This document shows, piece after piece, positions 19,728-27,765 of a DNA stretch of 43,821 nt (position 1 is the stretch's first letter; each line of letters starts with the position of its first letter). The notes under the pieces are model-generated. The model made no database searches, was not told the DNA's origin, and saw nothing but the letters and a program-made list of their open reading frames with translations. The position numbers were made by a program, and so were the translations under genes. This DNA comes from Flavobacteriaceae bacterium. Lineage in GTDB: Bacteria; Bacteroidota; Bacteroidia; Flavobacteriales; Flavobacteriaceae. The stretch lies in contig CANBWX010000010.1 of assembly GCA_947373225.1 (NCBI GenBank), forward strand, positions 1 through 43,821. Direction: 5' to 3'.

Positions 19728-20780
19728 TTAAACATCATCATAATCCACCACAATTTCTGCGGATGTAGGATGCGCTTGACATGTAAGAACTAAACCTTCG
19801 GCGATTTCGCTATCCGTTAGAATAGAGTTTTTAGTCATTTCGGCAGTTCCAGATTTAACACGAGCCAAACAGCTGCTACAAATTCCGCCTTGGCAAGAAT
19901 AAGGAGCGTCAACGCCTTGTTTTAAAGCTGCATCAAGAATGGTTTGTTTTTGTGACATTTCGAAAGTCGTTTCCTCATCATCAACCATAACGGTAATTTT
20001 GGTATGACCTTCTAGCGATTTTTCGATTTTATTTTCGACAGAAGAACTAGAGAATAATTCGAATTTAATATTCTTTTCGACAATGTTATGTGCTGCTAAA
20101 ACTGCCGAAACAGTATTGATCATTTCTTCGGGACCGCACAAATAAAATTTATCAAAAGACAATTCCTTGTGTTTATTATTCAAGATAAAATTCACCACCG
20201 ATTTATCTATTCTTCCAAATAATTCCCCGTCAACTTTGGCTTGACTGAAAACATATTGAATAAATAATCGCCCTGTATATTTAGAATGTAAGTCGTGTAA
20301 TTCTTGGTGAAAAATGGTTTCTTCGGGTGATTTGTTTCCGTAAACCAAAACAAAAGTGCTTTTAGGTTCGCTTTTCAACACCGATTTCAAGATTGATATT
20401 GCTGGTGTAATTCCGCTTCCAGCTACAAATGCAGCGTAGTTTTTTTGGCGATCAGTTTGCGGTTCGAAAGTGAATTTTCCTTCTGGTTTTCCCACTTCGA
20501 GAACATCACCCGCTTTTAGTTTTGTATTGGCAAACTGCGAGAAAGCACCGTTTTTTACGGCTTTCACCGCAATTCGTAATTCACCACTTTCGGGCGAAGA
20601 ACTTATAGAATAGGCGCGACGAATTTCTTTACCGTCAAGCGTTAATTTCAAATTTATATATTGACCGGCTATAAAAGTATAATTCGGTTTTAATTCTTCG
20701 GGAACATTAAAAAGGATAGAAACCGCAGAAGGCGTTTCGCGGGTTATTTCTTTTATGACCAATTTCTTGAATGATGGCAT
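19728..20780 (-). CDS. Ferredoxin:NAD(P)H oxidoreductase, PaaE-like (FAD + 2Fe-2S)
   Basis: A 350-residue cytoplasmic electron-transfer flavoprotein. Domains in order: FAD-binding barrel (~1-105, with RRAYSISSSP and GPEGKF-type GKPEGKFTF), NAD(P)-binding domain (~110-235, AAFVAGSGITPAISIL and FYLCGPEEMI), and a C-terminal plant-type 2Fe-2S ferredoxin domain with CQGGICSSC (C-x4-C-x2-C) and the distal Cys in LTCQAHP. This order is that of PaaE, the reductase of phenylacetyl-CoA epoxidase, and of other class IB reductases. No paaABCD genes are nearby, so a different monooxygenase or desaturase partner is possible. A reverse -7 element lies just upstream. Confidence 0.88.
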   Translation of the reverse strand: MPSFKKLVIKEITRETPSAVSILFNVPEELKPNYTFIAGQYINLKLTLDGKEIRRAYSISSSPESGELRIAVKAVKNGAFSQFANTKLKAGDVLEVGKPEGKFTFEPQTDRQKNYAAFVAGSGITPAISILKSVLKSEPKSTFVLVYGNKSPEETIFHQELHDLHSKYTGRLFIQYVFSQAKVDGELFGRIDKSVVNFILNNKHKELSFDKFYLCGPEEMINTVSAVLAAHNIVEKNIKFELFSSSSVENKIEKSLEGHTKITVMVDDEETTFEMSQKQTILDAALKQGVDAPYSCQGGICSSCLARVKSGTAEMTKNSILTDSEIAEGLVLTCQAHPTSAEIVVDYDDV

Positions 20781-20795
20781 GAGATTATTTTTTTA

Positions 20796-20803
20796 CAAAG
20801 ATA
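20796..20803 (-). promoter_or_regulatory. -7 promoter element for the PaaE-like gene
   Basis: CAAAGATA on the plus strand is TATCTTTG on the minus strand, an exact TAnnTTTG match 15 bp before the start. Confidence 0.55.
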
Positions 20804-20880
20804 GTAAAGACTTGAGATTTCTAAAAATCAAAATGTTTGAAATTTTTATACCTAAATAAACTATGTATAAGATTCTTATG

Positions 20881-20888
20881 TATATTTG
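20881..20888 (+). promoter_or_regulatory. -7 promoter element for the padR operon
   Basis: TATATTTG matches TAnnTTTG and lies 44 bp before the PadR ATG. The upstream stretch (20850-20890) contains ATGTATAA and CTTATGTATAT words; PadR-type operators often contain ATGT/ACAT, so autoregulation is possible. Confidence 0.55.
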
Positions 20889-20932
20889 TAATCTAAAACC
20901 GAGATTGATTTTCAACTCGCGATGACAAAAAA

Positions 20933-21268
20933 ATGAAAAACTCACAATTATACAAAGGAAGTCTCAATACAATAATCATGAAATTGCTCGAAGAAAACGG
21001 CAAAATGTATGGCTATGAAATCACCCAAAAAGTAAAAGCGATTACCCAAGGCGAACTTACGATTACCGAAGGCGCTTTGTATCCCGCCTTGCACAAACTA
21101 GAAGCCGAAGGTTTGCTCGATGTTGAGGTCGAAAAAGTGGATAATCGTTTACGGAAATACTATAAACTCACTGAAACCGGAACAAAAGAAACCGTAAATC
21201 GACTGACGGAACTGGAAGATTTTATCCGAAATATGCAGACTTTAGTAAATCCGAAATTAGAATTTTAA
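20933..21268 (+). CDS. PadR-family transcriptional regulator
   Basis: A 111-residue winged-helix DNA-binding repressor (PadR-s subfamily, without the long C-terminal dimer domain). Visible: YKGSLNTIIMKLLEENGKMYGYEITQKVKAITQGELTITEGALYPALHKLEAEGLL, the canonical PadR signature, with a wing around NRLRKYYKLTETG and a dimerising C-terminal helix. It heads a run of five same-strand genes (two membrane proteins, a permease and an ABC ATPase) with short gaps, and most likely controls that operon. The inducing signal cannot be read from sequence. Confidence 0.92.
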   Translation: MKNSQLYKGSLNTIIMKLLEENGKMYGYEITQKVKAITQGELTITEGALYPALHKLEAEGLLDVEVEKVDNRLRKYYKLTETGTKETVNRLTELEDFIRNMQTLVNPKLEF

Positions 21269-21278
21269 TCTATAAAAA

Positions 21279-21950
21279 ATGAAACTAACTACCGAACAAA
21301 TCGCAGAAATAGACGAAACTTTAGTTTTAAATGGACTCATTTATGATGACATAAAACTAGAAGTTACAGATCATATTGCTTCTGAAATTGAAGCTAAAAT
21401 GGATGAAAGTAGCATCTCGTTTGATGATGCTTTGTTTCAAGTTTTATTGAATTGGAAAGAGCAAATGAAACCGAGTTCATCGTTTTTGATTGGAAGAAAG
21501 AATGCACAACCAAAAATTGTAATTGATAAATGGGTATCAATTCATAAACAACAATCTTTAAATATTTTAAAATCATTATTTATAATCAGTTTGATTTTAA
21601 TTCTATTTACTAGAATAGTTACTGTTGAAAAGTTTTCTAAAGAAATTACAATCGTAATAAGAAGTTTTTATTTGATTTTTTGGATTTCAATTGTAATATG
21701 TAGAATGATTATTTACAAATCTAAAAAAATGACAATAACAGGATTAATCTTCAAAAACAATAGTTTAATTTATATTGTCGCTCTTTTCACTTTAGGTGTT
21801 GGAATAAGTCCGATTCATTTATTTAACAGCAATTCTTCATTTAATTTATGGACAGATTTATCTACAATTCTATTCTTTATTGCCTCATTTTCACTTTTGC
21901 AACTCGCCTACAAACACTTTCAATTCGAGAAAAAACTTAAAATTTCTTGA
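21279..21950 (+). CDS. HAAS-like membrane protein 1 (PadR-linked)
   Basis: A 223-residue protein: helical cytoplasmic N-terminus (1-~85) followed by four hydrophobic segments (~98-112, 125-145, 160-178, 195-212). The N-terminus, MKLTTEQIAEIDETLV...YDDIKLEVTDHIASEIEAKMDE, ends with a D-H-[IL]-A-x-x-I-E helix resembling HAAS domains, which accompany PadR regulators in many bacteria and are thought to sense or relay membrane signals. It begins 10 bp after padR and ends 4 bp before a paralog with the same architecture. Function is not known; the HAAS relation is inferred from pattern only. Confidence 0.6.
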   Translation: MKLTTEQIAEIDETLVLNGLIYDDIKLEVTDHIASEIEAKMDESSISFDDALFQVLLNWKEQMKPSSSFLIGRKNAQPKIVIDKWVSIHKQQSLNILKSLFIISLILILFTRIVTVEKFSKEITIVIRSFYLIFWISIVICRMIIYKSKKMTITGLIFKNNSLIYIVALFTLGVGISPIHLFNSNSSFNLWTDLSTILFFIASFSLLQLAYKHFQFEKKLKIS

Positions 21951-21954
21951 AACG

Positions 21955-22659
21955 ATGAAACTAACCACCGAACAAATAGACCAACTTTTTACTTTCACCC
22001 GCCAGCATTATGTAGAATGGTATGATTTACAATCCGAATTGGTAGATCATTTGGCGAATGCCATAGAAACCCAATGGCAAGAAAATCCAAAGTTAACTTT
22101 TGACGAAGTTCTAAATAAGGAATTCGGAAAATTTGGAGTTTTTGGATTTATGGGCGTGGTCGAAGAACGCCAAAAATTTCTTGGAAAAAAATACAATCGC
22201 CTGATTTGGAAATATTATAAAGAGTTTTTCAGGTTGCCAAAGATTATTTTGACAACAGCTTTAATCTATGGGTTGTACACTTTTCTAAACTTTTTCGAAA
22301 ATCCCGCAGCTATTTTTATGGGAACTTATATTTTTACATTGATTGTTTCTTTTGTCTTATTCTTAAAAGCAAGAAAAGAATTGAAACAAAAGCAAAAACG
22401 AACAGGAAAGAAATGGCTTTTTGAAAATAATGAAAATAGCTTAATTGCAATTCAGCTTTTTATTTTAGGTTATAGTATTTCCAATACTATTATTTATGTA
22501 TCAAAAATTAATATTTGGCATAGAGAATATTCAATTATTGCTTCGAGTGTATTGGTTTTAATTACACTTTATATTTTTATCCAACTAAAAATCATCCCCA
22601 ATAAAGTTTCCGAAGAACTCGCCAAAACATATCCAGAATATAAGCTCGAAAAATTGTAA
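21955..22659 (+). CDS. HAAS-like membrane protein 2 (PadR-linked paralog)
   Basis: A 234-residue protein with the same start MKLTTEQI as its upstream neighbour and an aligned motif YDLQSELVDHLANAIETQW, then FDEVLNKEFGKFG and three to four membrane segments (~103-121, 126-144, 165-185, 195-215). I place the start at the ATG 4 bp after the upstream stop, since it restores the shared N-terminus. Together the two look like an old tandem duplication. C-terminal ends differ; this one ends in a cytoplasmic NKVSEELAKTYPEYKLEKL. Probably a membrane-bound partner of PadR; unproven. Confidence 0.6.
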   Translation: MKLTTEQIDQLFTFTRQHYVEWYDLQSELVDHLANAIETQWQENPKLTFDEVLNKEFGKFGVFGFMGVVEERQKFLGKKYNRLIWKYYKEFFRLPKIILTTALIYGLYTFLNFFENPAAIFMGTYIFTLIVSFVLFLKARKELKQKQKRTGKKWLFENNENSLIAIQLFILGYSISNTIIYVSKINIWHREYSIIASSVLVLITLYIFIQLKIIPNKVSEELAKTYPEYKLEKL

Positions 22660-22706
22660 CATTTTCTTACTTTTAGCGACTAATCACAAAACCAAAACAA
22701 ATTACC

Positions 22707-24170
22707 ATGATTAAAAAATTCCTTTATCTCGAATGGAAAGCTTTTATAAGATCGGCTTCATTTGGAACTAATCTAGCCTTCAATATCTTTATGGGTTTGT
22801 TAGTTATTCTATATGCTGCCTTGTTATTAGGTGCGGGTATTGCGGTTTTTTATGGTTTGAAAGAAAGACATTTAGATCCTTTGCACGAGGTGAACAAATA
22901 CTTGGCTTACTATTTTTTAATAGGTATTGCCATGCGATTAGTCATGCAAAAAATCCCAGTACTTAACATTCGTCCTTTGTTGGTTTTACCAATAAAAAAA
23001 GTATTAATGGTCAATTTTTCTTTAGGAAAAACGGTATTGTCTGCACCAAATTTGCTTCAAGCTTTTTTCTTTTTACCTTTTTCTATTATTCTACTGGTTG
23101 AGGGTTATGAAGTCCTGGGTGTTATTTTTTGGCATTTATCAATGATGGCATTGGTTTATAGCAATAATTTTTTGAATATTATTCTGAATAACAAAGACAA
23201 TTTGTTTGTTATTTTTCTAGGAATTGCAGCTGTTCTTGGCGGATTTCAATATTATGAAATTTTCAATATTACAGATTATACTGTAGTATTTTTTGACGGA
23301 TTGTTTGCTTCAAAAGGACTATTTTTTGTTCCTCTTACAATATTGATTGGCTTGTACTATTACACGTTCAACTATTTCAAAAGTGAGTTGTATCTTGATG
23401 CAGGACTTTCGACCAAGCAAGAAATTGCCAAAACCGAAAATCTAACTTGGTTAAACCAATTTGGATCATTAGGAACCTTCCTGAAAAATGATATTAAACT
23501 CATCAAAAGAAATAAACGTTCAAGAAACACGATTTTTATGAGTTTTTTGTTTTTATTCTACGGAATAATTTTTTTCAAAGAACATTCACATCAACCAGCA
23601 GTAATGAATATTTTTGCTGGGATATTCGTTTCGGGTGGATTTTTATTCACTTTCGGACAGTTTGTTCCTAGCTGGGACAGTGCTTATTACCAGTTAATGA
23701 TGACACAAAATATTTCTTACAAAGGTTATTTGAACTCAAAATGGTGGCTTGTTGTAATTGCTACTTTGATCTCGACCATTTTGGCTTCGTTTTATTTGTA
23801 TTTTGGATGGCAAGTTTACCTTACGATTGTTGTTGGAGCGATTTATAATATTGGTGTCAATTCGCATTTGGTTTTGCTTGGCGGTGCTTATACAAAAACG
23901 CCAATAGATTTGGCTTCTAGCAAAGGCGCTTTTGGCGATAAAAAGGCTTTTAATGTGAACACAATGCTAATTTCGTTGCCAAAATTACTCTTACCAGTTT
24001 TACTATATTGGGCGGGTTCTTCATTAATGAATGCAAATTTAGGACTTGTATTTGTTGCAATTGCAGGAGTTTTAGGTTTTGCTTTTAGAGACAAAGTGTT
24101 TTCTTTAATCGAAAAAATATACAGAACCGAGAAATACAAAACAATTGATGCTTACAAACAAAAAGCTTAA
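22707..24170 (+). CDS. DUF5687 ABC-2-like permease
   Basis: A 487-residue polytopic membrane protein with about twelve hydrophobic segments arranged over the whole length. The start MIKKFLYLEWKAFIRSASFGTNLAFNIFMG resembles ABC-2 exporter permeases ('L...E...'), and a second such motif occurs after mid-protein: LKNDIKLIKRNKRSRNTIFMSFLFLFYG (~262-290), suggesting an internal duplication of two six-helix halves. It fits Bacteroidota DUF5687. The ABC ATPase gene follows 49 bp later, so both form an exporter of unknown substrate, in the PadR operon. Confidence 0.75.
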   Translation: MIKKFLYLEWKAFIRSASFGTNLAFNIFMGLLVILYAALLLGAGIAVFYGLKERHLDPLHEVNKYLAYYFLIGIAMRLVMQKIPVLNIRPLLVLPIKKVLMVNFSLGKTVLSAPNLLQAFFFLPFSIILLVEGYEVLGVIFWHLSMMALVYSNNFLNIILNNKDNLFVIFLGIAAVLGGFQYYEIFNITDYTVVFFDGLFASKGLFFVPLTILIGLYYYTFNYFKSELYLDAGLSTKQEIAKTENLTWLNQFGSLGTFLKNDIKLIKRNKRSRNTIFMSFLFLFYGIIFFKEHSHQPAVMNIFAGIFVSGGFLFTFGQFVPSWDSAYYQLMMTQNISYKGYLNSKWWLVVIATLISTILASFYLYFGWQVYLTIVVGAIYNIGVNSHLVLLGGAYTKTPIDLASSKGAFGDKKAFNVNTMLISLPKLLLPVLLYWAGSSLMNANLGLVFVAIAGVLGFAFRDKVFSLIEKIYRTEKYKTIDAYKQKA

Positions 24171-24219
24171 ACTAATTTTCTAAAACGATTCAACAAATAA
24201 CCGAATAAACCTTTTTTAA

Positions 24220-24915
24220 ATGATACAAGTAAGCAATCTTTCGAAAACATATAACGGAACTACCGTACTTAAAATAGAAAATCTAGAAATCCCAAAAGGA
24301 CAAAGTTTTGGTCTTGTGGGCAACAATGGCGCCGGAAAAACTACATTTTTTAGTTTAGTTTTAGATTTGATTCAACCATCAACGGGGCATATTATCAACA
24401 ACGAAGTTCAGGTAAATACCAGTGAAAACTGGAAACCTTTTACCGCTTCTTTTCTTGACGAAAGTTTCTTGATTGGCTATTTGACGCCAGAAGAATATTT
24501 TTATTTTATTGGCGATTTACGTAATCAAAACAAAGCCGACGTTGATGCTTTATTAGCCAAACACGAAGAATTTTTTAATGGTGAAATTCTGAAAAACAAA
24601 AAATATTTGCGTGATTTATCCAAGGGAAACCAAAAGAAAGTAGGGATTATTGCCACACTTATTGGTAATCCCGAAGTGGTAATTCTTGATGAACCTTTTG
24701 CTAATTTGGATCCAACAACAGTAAGTCGATTAAAAAAAATCATCAAGGAACTTGCCGAAAATCCTGATGTTACCGTCCTAGTTTCGAGCCATGATTTGCA
24801 ACATACAGTTGAGGTTTGCGACCGGATTTTGGTTCTAAACAAAGGCGAAGTTGTAAAAGATATTCAAACATCAAAGGAAACCTTACAAGAGCTAGAAACG
24901 TTTTTTGCGGTTTAA
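24220..24915 (+). CDS. ABC transporter ATP-binding protein
   Basis: A 231-residue nucleotide-binding subunit, cytoplasmic. Walker A GNNGAGKT (~34-41), Q-loop region FTASFLDESFL (~80), signature LSKGNQKKVGIIATLIG (an LSKGN variant of LSGGQ, common in ABC-2 exporters), Walker B VVILDEPFANLDPTT and switch His in VSSHDLQHTVEVCD. It energises the DUF5687 permease upstream. The LSKGN signature and stand-alone arrangement fit exporters of peptides, lipids or drugs; no substrate is indicated. Confidence 0.93.
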   Translation: MIQVSNLSKTYNGTTVLKIENLEIPKGQSFGLVGNNGAGKTTFFSLVLDLIQPSTGHIINNEVQVNTSENWKPFTASFLDESFLIGYLTPEEYFYFIGDLRNQNKADVDALLAKHEEFFNGEILKNKKYLRDLSKGNQKKVGIIATLIGNPEVVILDEPFANLDPTTVSRLKKIIKELAENPDVTVLVSSHDLQHTVEVCDRILVLNKGEVVKDIQTSKETLQELETFFAV

Positions 24916-25002
24916 ATTTCGATATTTAAAAAAGAAACGTATTTTTACCAGTCATTATACTAAAACGTTGTTTTAAAAGTTAAATGATTAAAAAGGCTAC
25001 CA

Positions 25003-27765
25003 TTGAAAACCAATACGTATAAATACACATTTATTTTAGGATTTTTATTTTTCTTGATAGCTTGTTCTACTAAGAGAGACACTTTTTTGGCTAGGAATTC
25101 CCACGCACTTAGCACAGAATACAACATTCTTTTTAACGGGCAAATAGGTTTAGACAAAGGAATAAAAAGTATTGAATCTAAAAACAAAGACAATTTTTGG
25201 AAACGATTGCCAATAGAAAAAATGCAATTTATTGACGATAATTCGGCTGCTCCAAAACCCAAAAACGCCGATTTTGAACTTGCTGAAGCCAAAGCTACAA
25301 AGGCAATTCAAAAACATTCCATGAATATTGACGGCAGAGAACGAAATATGCAAATGGACGAAGCCTATTTGATGCTAGGAAAAGCCAGATATTACGACCA
25401 AAGATTTATTCCTGCGATCGATGCTTTCAATTATATTTTGTACAAATACACGAATAGCGACAAGATTTATGAAGCTAGAATTTGGCGCGAAAAAACGAAT
25501 ATGCGCTTGGGTAATGATGAACAGGTTATAAAAAACATCAATAAACTTTTAGACCAGAAAAAACTTAAAAACCAAGTCGTTGCTAATGCGAATGCCCTAC
25601 TTTCGGAAGCATTTTTAAATCTTGAACAAACAGATAGTGCGCTAGCAAAATTAAAAATTGCTGAAAAATACACCAAAATAAATACCGAAAGAGCTCGATA
25701 TCGTTTTATTTTAGGACAATTGTATCAAGAATTAGGAAAAAAAGATAGTGCTTTATATAGTTATCAATCGGTGATTGCTATGAATAGAAAATCTAGTCGG
25801 GAATTTGTTATTCAAGCGTATGCTAAAAAAGCTCAATTATTCGATTATGAAAAAGGAGATGCCAATACCTTTATAAAAACATTTAATAAGCTGGTTGCCG
25901 ACAGAGAAAACAGACCGTTTTTGGATGTTATTTATTATGAAATGGGTGTGTTTTATGACAAACGAAATGACCAGAAATTGGCTTCTAAATATTATAATTC
26001 TTCTCTAAAAAGAAAATCATCCGACAACTATTTAGTAGCTTCAGATTATAGAAACATAGGAAATATGCACTTTAAAAATGCGGAATATCCCCTTGCCGCA
26101 AAGTATTATGACAGCACATTAGTTAAACTTGAAACAAAAACAAGAGAATACATACACATTAAAAAAGTCCGAAAAGATTTAGATGAAGTGATCGAATATG
26201 AGTTAGTTGCCAAAACAAATGACAGTATATTAAAGGTAGTTTCTTTGACAGAAGCAGACCGAGTTTTATACTATGAAAATTATATAGAAAAGCTTAAAAA
26301 AGCGGATATAGCCAAGAAAAAAGCGGAGGAAAAAGAAAAACAAAGATTAGAAAATATAGCAAGAAACAGTAAAGTAGCTTCGGCTGATCCTGCTTTTGGC
26401 GCTCAATCACCAGGAAAAGCAGTCAAGAAAGCAGCTTCAGGACCGCCTTCAATTGCAGATGCTTCGATTAATGCCGCTGCAAGTGCTTTCTATTTCTATA
26501 ATCCCACAACTGTGGCTTATGGAAAAGTAGAATTCAAAAAAAGGTGGGGTGACAGAGCATTAAATGGAAATTGGAGACAACCAACCAATGCGATAAGTCC
26601 AAGTGTTAATGACACAATCAACAAAAACAAACCAGCGGAAGAAAATAAATTAGCGGAAGATAAAATCCCCGAAAAATACACTACTGATTTTTATCTAAAA
26701 CAACTTCCGAAAACGCAAGTGGAAATAGATAAAATTGCCAAGGAGCGTAATGTTGCTTATTATGAACTTGGGGTTATTTATAAAGAAAAATTCAAGGAAT
26801 ATCAATTAGCCACTAACAGACTAGAACTGTTATTGCAGCAAAATCCAGAAGAAAAACTGATTCTTCCGGCGATGTATAATTTATATAAAACATACCAAAT
26901 TACCAATGTAAATAAGGCAGAGGCGATGAAAGCCAGAATTTCGAGCCAGTATTCAAATTCGCGTTATGCTCAGATAATAAACAATGCAAATCCTACCGAG
27001 GCTCTTGAAAAAGGAAGTCCCGAAAACATATATAATAAATGGTATAAATTGTATCAGGGTGAACAATTCGTTACTGTTTTGGGAGCTATTGATGAACTGA
27101 TTAATCAGTTTTCGGGTGATGAAATTGTATCTAAATTCGAATTACTAAAAGCTAATACTATAGGAAAACTCAAAGGATTAGAAGCGTATAAAAAAGCGAT
27201 GCAATATGTTGCCGATACGTATCCAAAAAGTGAGGAAGGGAAAAACGCTAAAGAAATTTTGACTACACAAATTCCATTTTTAGAAAAGATGAGTTTTGAT
27301 GTGATTGACAAAAAAAACTGGAAAGTTCTTTATAAAGTTGCCGATTTGGAAGGCAAAAGCACAGCGGATTTACAAATTAAAATTAGCAAGTTATTTGGTA
27401 ATGAAATCTATAAAGAATTATTCTTTACGTGTGAAAATTATTCGGAAAAGGAAAGTTTTGTTATGATTCAGGGCATAAATTCAGAAGCCTATGCAAAAAC
27501 AATAGTTAGTATATTAAAAGACAAATATAAAATTACGGAAGCTGCAATTATAATTTCGGATGAAAACTACAAAATAGTCCAAATTAAGAAGAATCTTGAG
27601 GAATATTTGGCTCCACCAAAGACAATAATAATACCTAATCAACAAGCAGTTTCTCAACCATTAAACACAAATCAAGATACACCCTTGGAAAAGTTTCCAC
27701 CAATTCAAAATCCGAACAGAAAAGATAAAATTAACACAAGCCCTAATTCACCAAAAAAGCCGTAG
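25003..27765 (+). CDS. sprE: Type IX secretion/gliding TPR lipoprotein SprE/PorW
   Basis: A 920-residue lipoprotein of the type IX secretion system, needed in Flavobacterium johnsoniae for secretion and gliding. Signal peptide with lipobox FLIAC (Cys21), then the diagnostic CSTKRDTFLARNSHALSTEYNILFNGQIGLDKGI, followed by TPR-like helical repeats (~120-400: DEAYLMLGKARYYDQRFIPAIDAFNYIL and so on), a Lys/Ala/Glu-rich central stretch (~440-480), a second helical block (~560-760) and a low-complexity Pro/Asn tail. The start is TTG 25003; the nearest ATG upstream is out of frame. It is followed by the bactofilin gene only 2 bp later. Confidence 0.9.
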   Translation: MKTNTYKYTFILGFLFFLIACSTKRDTFLARNSHALSTEYNILFNGQIGLDKGIKSIESKNKDNFWKRLPIEKMQFIDDNSAAPKPKNADFELAEAKATKAIQKHSMNIDGRERNMQMDEAYLMLGKARYYDQRFIPAIDAFNYILYKYTNSDKIYEARIWREKTNMRLGNDEQVIKNINKLLDQKKLKNQVVANANALLSEAFLNLEQTDSALAKLKIAEKYTKINTERARYRFILGQLYQELGKKDSALYSYQSVIAMNRKSSREFVIQAYAKKAQLFDYEKGDANTFIKTFNKLVADRENRPFLDVIYYEMGVFYDKRNDQKLASKYYNSSLKRKSSDNYLVASDYRNIGNMHFKNAEYPLAAKYYDSTLVKLETKTREYIHIKKVRKDLDEVIEYELVAKTNDSILKVVSLTEADRVLYYENYIEKLKKADIAKKKAEEKEKQRLENIARNSKVASADPAFGAQSPGKAVKKAASGPPSIADASINAAASAFYFYNPTTVAYGKVEFKKRWGDRALNGNWRQPTNAISPSVNDTINKNKPAEENKLAEDKIPEKYTTDFYLKQLPKTQVEIDKIAKERNVAYYELGVIYKEKFKEYQLATNRLELLLQQNPEEKLILPAMYNLYKTYQITNVNKAEAMKARISSQYSNSRYAQIINNANPTEALEKGSPENIYNKWYKLYQGEQFVTVLGAIDELINQFSGDEIVSKFELLKANTIGKLKGLEAYKKAMQYVADTYPKSEEGKNAKEILTTQIPFLEKMSFDVIDKKNWKVLYKVADLEGKSTADLQIKISKLFGNEIYKELFFTCENYSEKESFVMIQGINSEAYAKTIVSILKDKYKITEAAIIISDENYKIVQIKKNLEEYLAPPKTIIIPNQQAVSQPLNTNQDTPLEKFPPIQNPNRKDKINTSPNSPKKP

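Follow-up and report, generated by a model that had tools for sequence, protein, structure and literature searches.

A conserved padR-linked array of membrane proteins and its separable DUF5687-ABC neighbour in Flavobacteriaceae

The padR locus and its paralogous membrane proteins

The DNA analysed here, referred to as the window, is a stretch of 43,821 nt from a Flavobacteriaceae bacterium (assembly GCA_947373225.1, contig CANBWX010000010.1), in which a gene for a PadR family repressor is followed by genes for two membrane proteins, named M1 and M2, a DUF5687 protein and an ABC ATPase. The five genes form a single run on the plus strand, from 20933 to 24915 (Table 1), and the Pfam scores agree with the layout that had been given in a preliminary description made from the sequence alone. 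PadR and the M genes next to it, hereafter called the array, most likely form a membrane-linked switch of the PadR/HAAS type; the module is genuine and conserved, belongs to a class of regulatory unit put forward only recently, and has an unusual layout of one repressor and many sensors. In our reading, the host is a Flavobacterium. The run is flanked upstream, on the opposite strand, by the gene of a reductase which we take to be PaaE, and downstream by the gene of a protein with weak tetratricopeptide repeat (TPR) matches, presumably PorW.

M1 and M2 had been described as tandem paralogues. Both proteins start with MKLTTEQI and carry E28-x-x-D31-H32, of which D31 and H32 are invariant across an alignment of 56 homologous N-terminal domains (N-domains). 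As the profiles of the M1 type and the M2 type match each other at an hhalign probability of 99.3%, the paralogy is real. AlphaFold models, each built from relatives collected in this analysis, reached mean pLDDT values of 93.2 (M1) and 91.1 (M2), and both predict a three-helix N-domain followed by four long helices. The predicted N-domain helices span residues 5-17, 23-44 and 48-58 in M1 and residues 5-17, 23-43 and 49-91 in M2, where the third helix continues past the domain. By a simple hydrophobicity threshold, hydrophobic stretches coincide with all four long helices of M1 and with three of the four of M2, and thus both are considered membrane proteins. Neither protein matches a Pfam family over its cut-off or an NCBIfam family at E up to 1. 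When the 56 N-domains were scanned singly against Pfam, no family among the best 25 of 40 was found in more than two of them, and a profile search of the PDB sequences gave a best E of 0.49.

Identity is higher in the N-domain than in the remaining protein for 275 of 276 pairs of the M2 type (means 0.57 and 0.24) and for 819 of 820 pairs of the M1 type (means 0.33 and 0.13), the mean identities of PadR, DUF5687 and the ABC ATPase being 0.80, 0.57 and 0.84, respectively. In the 27 padR loci linked to PaaE, of which two are interrupted by a contig end, the number of N-domain genes ranges from 0 to 6. Only 14 of the 77 N-domain genes have their nearest relative within the same array; therefore, most array paralogues seem to be old. 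Decaying arrays, in which padR is kept and the M genes are broken or missing, were observed at L059, L039 and L041. An automatic profile of the membrane proteins drifted in its final rounds, picking up products of about 130 aa encoded after the TPR gene; these were discarded and the N-domain profile was used in its place.

Table 1. Features at the padR locus, with positions in the window
Feature	Position	Strand	Remarks
Reductase with FAD, NAD and 2Fe-2S domains	19728..20780	-	presumed PaaE
Putative PadR operator, inverted repeat ATACCTAA-N5-CTATGTAT	20848..20868	+	1 mismatch to ATACMTAAN5TTAKGTAT
Extra operator half-site TTATGTAT	20876..20883	+	overlaps the start of the -7 element
Putative -7 element TATATTTG in the promoter of the padR operon	20881..20888	+	fits TAnnTTTG
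PadR family repressor, 111 aa	20933..21268	+	PF03551, 75 bits (cut-off 27); PadR relatives of solved structure
M1, membrane protein, 223 aa, with a predicted three-helix partner domain at the N-terminus	21279..21950	+	model mf804e4b140eb
M2, paralogue of M1, final gene of the array, 234 aa	21955..22659	+	model mb0df882f7f6e; 24-sequence alignment A1
DUF5687 protein, presumed permease, optional neighbour	22707..24170	+	PF18940, 628.7 bits (cut-off 33), E 1.3e-188
ABC ATPase, partner of DUF5687	24220..24915	+	PF00005, 74.1 bits (cut-off 25)
Protein with weak TPR matches	25003..27765		presumed PorW

The N-terminal domain and its linkage to padR

The N-domain profile matched 24 of 296 genomes of the phylum, 23 of which have one or more copies in the same gene run as padR. 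Of the 44 matches in this survey, 30 were fetched; padR was found within a short locus for 24 of them (behind the N-domain gene in two), and five of the six remaining matches are distal array members whose padR was located separately. At L253 and L254 the N-domain forms the prefix of a protein (about 900 residues) that also has MacB_PCD and FtsX domains and is encoded directly behind padR, and there it occupies the usual position of permease prefix domains; this fusion is seen in these two relatives only, not in M1 or M2. The earlier view that the membrane proteins carry a PadR-linked N-terminal domain was thus supported. The tree of the PadR sequences sorts by the class of the partner domain, with 3 changes, which is the minimum, compared with a mean of 55.6 after shuffling; it was built from few columns, with 17 of 102 branches well supported and 22 of 127 PadR rows left out.

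A protein encoded beside padR at L251 (8110-9360, minus strand) consists of an N-domain followed by GldL- and GldM-like domains, the match to the first domain of GldM having an E of 8.7e-13; judged by these matches, this type of protein is PadR-coupled and resembles the gliding/type IX motor. GldL_N was matched above its cut-off at L251 and below it in short PadR-linked N-domain proteins at L138, L140 and L144.

The HAAS-PadR dyad was published in 2024 as a proposed alternative to two-component signalling (Ravi et al., PMC11237479) and also appears in PMC12419801. According to Ravi et al., a GxP motif kinks helix 3 of HAAS, and the form fused to FtsX/MacB is counted as HAAS. The preliminary description had held its unit to be undescribed, which no longer applies to the general PadR/HAAS unit; for the array of PadR and membrane proteins itself, no description was found in the titles and abstract openings of the open-licence literature, which is weak evidence of absence. 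Like the published dyad (PMC11237479), the array has a standalone padR directly upstream and membrane proteins with an N-terminal domain of three helices, as predicted here, and FtsX-fused forms exist. Unlike the dyad, it comprises several tandem membrane proteins per PadR and a candidate operator, and its N-domain has no detectable similarity to the PF22564 of Bacteroidota.

The N-domains were compared with three families by using four N-domain sets, each tested against 100 column shuffles, plus the reversed sets. HAAS (PF22564) has matches in 37 of 296 genomes of the phylum, from which 30 loci were taken and 26 sequences used; perm_prefix_2 (NF038404) has matches in 17 of 198 genomes, represented by 30 loci; and perm_prefix_1 (NF038403) is over the cut-off in 17 of 296 genomes, represented by one locus per genome. 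The similarity to HAAS that had been claimed, and for which a profile comparison had been proposed, was not detected against the 26 Bacteroidota sequences: the hhalign probability was below 1%, 10 to 30 of 100 shuffles scored equally well, and the reversed M1 set outscored the true M1 set. PF22564 was also absent among the best 25 of 40 families in the Pfam scan of the 56 N-domains, and the GxP motif occurs in 2 of these 56, compared with 27 of 29 PF22564 stretches and 4 of 17 perm_prefix_1 stretches.

The sole NCBIfam family standing out was perm_prefix_1, with 10 of the 56 N-domains matching at E up to 1 (best 1.6e-4); the scores obtained for N-domain genes, 24.4 bits (G338) or lower, do not reach the curated cut-off of 30 bits. 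In the profile test, the N-domains matched perm_prefix_1 at hhalign probabilities of 61-82%, in register over 45-55 columns, and the scores of 28-32 were reached by none of the 100 shuffles in any of the four sets (shuffle maxima 17-20, reversed sets 10-18). The two families also share E-L-x-x-H, found with slightly different patterns in 55 of 56 N-domains and 15 of 17 perm_prefix_1 sequences; in addition, padR is present at 15 of the 17 perm_prefix_1 loci and the operators are related. Unlike perm_prefix_1, the N-domain of M1 and M2 precedes a four-helix membrane part and not a permease. The family perm_prefix_2 was rejected as a relative, with a less clean result: none of the 100 shuffles equalled the short-domain set, which had a probability of 10.5%, while 1, 12 and 1 of 100 shuffles reached the scores of the other three sets. 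Judged by profiles and predicted structures, the N-domain thus appears HAAS-like in its setting and shape and remotely related to perm_prefix_1, and its identity as HAAS is unsupported.

The HAAS loci of Bacteroidota (L150-L178) are a separate PadR circuit with a different PadR clade. All 29 of them have padR, and many of their Pfam HAAS proteins lie in open frames of about 500-770 residues. One genome of the phylum (G332, locus L270) contains 14 perm_prefix_1 matches, 11 of which are in open frames of 885-920 residues.

A candidate operator at the padR promoter

The candidate operator is a 21-bp inverted repeat, ATAC[AC]TAA-N5-TTA[GT]GTAT, overlapping the padR promoter. The window has two matches to it at up to 2 mismatches, compared with 0.10 expected from shuffles; the second (20863-20883, 2 mismatches) overlaps the first. 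Sites within 2 mismatches are present at 26 of 28 padR genes of the genus and at 16 of 19 in the phylum set; two of the misses in the latter have an N-domain gene before padR, and the best sites upstream of that gene have 3 and 2 mismatches. The extra half-site is present at 19 of 26 genus padR loci, among the loci listed. TAnnTTTG is the consensus of the -7 promoter element. Since 20 of 28 padR loci of the genus have one after the operator, with an offset of 33 in 13 loci and of 35 in 4, PadR bound at the operator would block its own promoter. In the genome to which the window belongs (96% complete, 178 contigs), just two sites lie within 1 mismatch, one at the padR promoter and the other inside a coding gene; therefore, the control exerted by PadR looks local. 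A genome-wide PadR regulon was unsupported here, with 10 places at up to 2 mismatches and 14 for the backward control.

With a wider pattern, which was picked after the sites of the N-domain and perm_prefix_1 classes had been seen, operators at up to 2 mismatches accompany 29 of 32 padR genes in one set of the N-domain class and 19 of 26 in another (L249 is omitted from both), and are present at 10 of 15 of the perm_prefix_1 class, at 3 of 29 padR genes of the HAAS class and 0 of 25 of the perm_prefix_2 class. Because the class of the partner domain, the PadR clade and the type of operator go together, there may be separate, insulated wiring codes. This forms part of a broader reading, which we put forward tentatively: Bacteroidota would have unnamed PadR-partner domains that are remote kin of perm_prefix_1, one PadR would serve up to six diversified sensors, the wiring codes would be insulated from each other, and the exporters would be removable.

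For the locus itself, we favour with moderate confidence the reading that PadR and the M array form a self-repressing switch with membrane-anchored partner proteins; gene order, the domain, its predicted fold, the operator-like site, linkage and separability are its computed support. A PadR repressing its own operon, as proposed here, is like Listeria LltR (lmo0599-0600-0601), which represses its own operon about 107- to 151-fold; that operon has two further genes, whose products are called trans-membrane proteins, one of them DUF1700, and for LltR as for LstR the main target of repression is the operon that encodes it (PMC6624303). Listeria LftR additionally represses a drug ABC transporter. 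Unlike the proteins studied here, the Listeria partners are DUF1700/DUF4097 and DUF1048 proteins of another phylum, and lieAB lies outside the lftRS operon.

Several results weigh against the self-repressing switch with membrane partners, among them the late choice of the wider operator pattern. A stricter pattern derived from the N-domain class was found at 5 of 15 padR genes of perm_prefix_1, 0 of 29 of HAAS and 0 of 25 of perm_prefix_2, and even the wider one finds no operator for 3 of 32 padR genes in the first N-domain set and for 7 of 26 in the second. In a third set, of more distant padR genes, the operator is present at 7 of 16 (7 of 12 with this partner, 0 of 4 with another). Two of the 27 PaaE-linked padR loci (L059 and L136) have no N-domain gene, and G169 (L257) encodes a divergent N-domain protein (E 9.2e-9) with no padR found nearby. 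Foldseek searches of the PDB with the M1 and M2 models gave nothing at E up to 0.001. Furthermore, losing only lftS (DUF1048) was not enough to derepress lieA in Listeria, and since LftR represses lieA with or without LftS (PMC4517056), a partner role of such proteins is unproven even there.

It might be instead that PadR itself senses a small hydrophobic compound and that M1 and M2 are not partners of PadR but act on the membrane as effectors. PadR would then resemble LmrR and LftR, which are presumed sensors of such compounds; drug binding in the pore of the dimer is known from structurally characterised PadR relatives, and it is in their membrane halves that the array proteins vary, as effectors facing changing attackers might. 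That LftR reportedly acts in response to aurantimycin (PMC6624303) and represses lieA without LftS also fits. However, the N-domain is conserved and its class tracks the PadR clade, which is a better fit to an interface than to an effector, and FtsX permeases encoded after padR carry it as a fusion; we consider this explanation rather unlikely.

The DUF5687-ABC neighbour and the proposed switch

DUF5687 is presumed to be a permease from its ABC ATPase neighbour. It has no match among PDB sequences at E up to 1, and no description of it was found in the open-licence literature; the best NCBIfam matches of the ABC ATPase are LptB, GldA and DrrA, all under cut-off. According to the preliminary description, these two proteins together with PadR, M1 and M2 would be one self-contained system for envelope stress or drug/lipid export. 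At the reductase site of 67 genomes of the genus, both cassettes, PadR-M and DUF5687-ABC, are present in 17, PadR-M only in 8, DUF5687-ABC only in 29 and neither in 13, counting loci with a PaaE match over 300 bits; the incomplete loci L057, L098, L116 and L123 were dropped, and L051 (a PaaE fragment whose genome is counted as L136) and L058 were omitted. Of the 25 genomes with padR at this site, 17 thus have DUF5687-ABC there too, as do 29 of the 42 without padR (odds ratio 0.95, P 1.0). The reductase tree, which has 72 rows including five sister-genus loci and cannot separate gain from loss, contains 15 changes of PadR-M and 10 of DUF5687. It gave no sign of joint gain or loss, at low power as few pairs differ: in 8 independent pairs differing in PadR-M, DUF5687 changed the same way in 0.4 on average, the opposite way in 0.5, and was unchanged in 7.1. 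Five of the eight genomes with PadR-M only carry a DUF5687 gene elsewhere.

One system would be in keeping with the adjacency of the genes here and in the 17 genomes, with the presence of both cassettes at four of the five sister-genus outgroup loci (which were found via the N-domain), and with G222, where the two are adjacent in another order. The gap between the array and DUF5687 is 45-70 bp in 14 of the 17 genomes with both, and the 150 bp preceding DUF5687 include a TAnnTTTG element in 1 of 17 genomes with the array and in 11 of 29 without (9 of the 11 in one clade); the exporter is therefore likely co-transcribed with the array here. Nevertheless, the lack of association, the tree without joint change and the absence of DUF5687-ABC from all 12 loci with a PadR-N-domain pair outside the family tell against one system, which was already weakened and which we regard as improbable. 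We concluded that DUF5687-ABC is a plausible output of the PadR switch and not a required component.

The interval from the reductase to the TPR gene (20780-25003 in the window) shows repeated gene gain and loss across the genus, with the four states occurring in close relatives.

In each of the four pairs of close relatives compared, one member lacks a segment, of about 0.95 to 3.2 kb, that the other has. Such presence/absence segments, the arrays of 0 to 6 genes, the broken or missing copies and the strong divergence of the membrane half might mean that genes turn over at this site as at a hot spot, the array being an accessory, perhaps defence-like membrane set that changes under attack and is merely kept silent by PadR. 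But M1 and M2 match no PADLOC model at E up to 0.01, and the conserved N-domain and operator indicate regulation; we regard this possibility as very improbable.

In the self-repressing switch with membrane partners, PadR would bind the palindrome overlapping its own promoter and shut off the operon, while the four helices of M1 and M2 would keep the three-helix domain on the inner side of the membrane. An envelope or lipid signal reaching the membrane part might then be relayed to PadR, which the N-domain would bind or release, and the operon would be derepressed. The conserved half (PadR, operator and N-domain) would then be the wiring and the variable membrane half the input. DUF5687-ABC, directly behind the array, would probably be induced by read-through, its presumed export being one optional output.

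What is new here is a family of partner domains unnamed in the libraries searched, the arrays in which one PadR has as many as six sensors, and the candidate operator. PadR/HAAS signalling was proposed recently, and the experiments in the parts of the literature cited above do not so far show a partner controlling PadR. The array, the candidate operator, the candidate interface of 65 residues and the presence/absence pairs would make the control of PadR by a membrane domain testable, and the separability of the exporter warns that a shared gene run need not mean one system. If the broader reading is true, the same wiring would serve plain four-helix sensors, FtsX permeases or membrane domains like those of the gliding motor.

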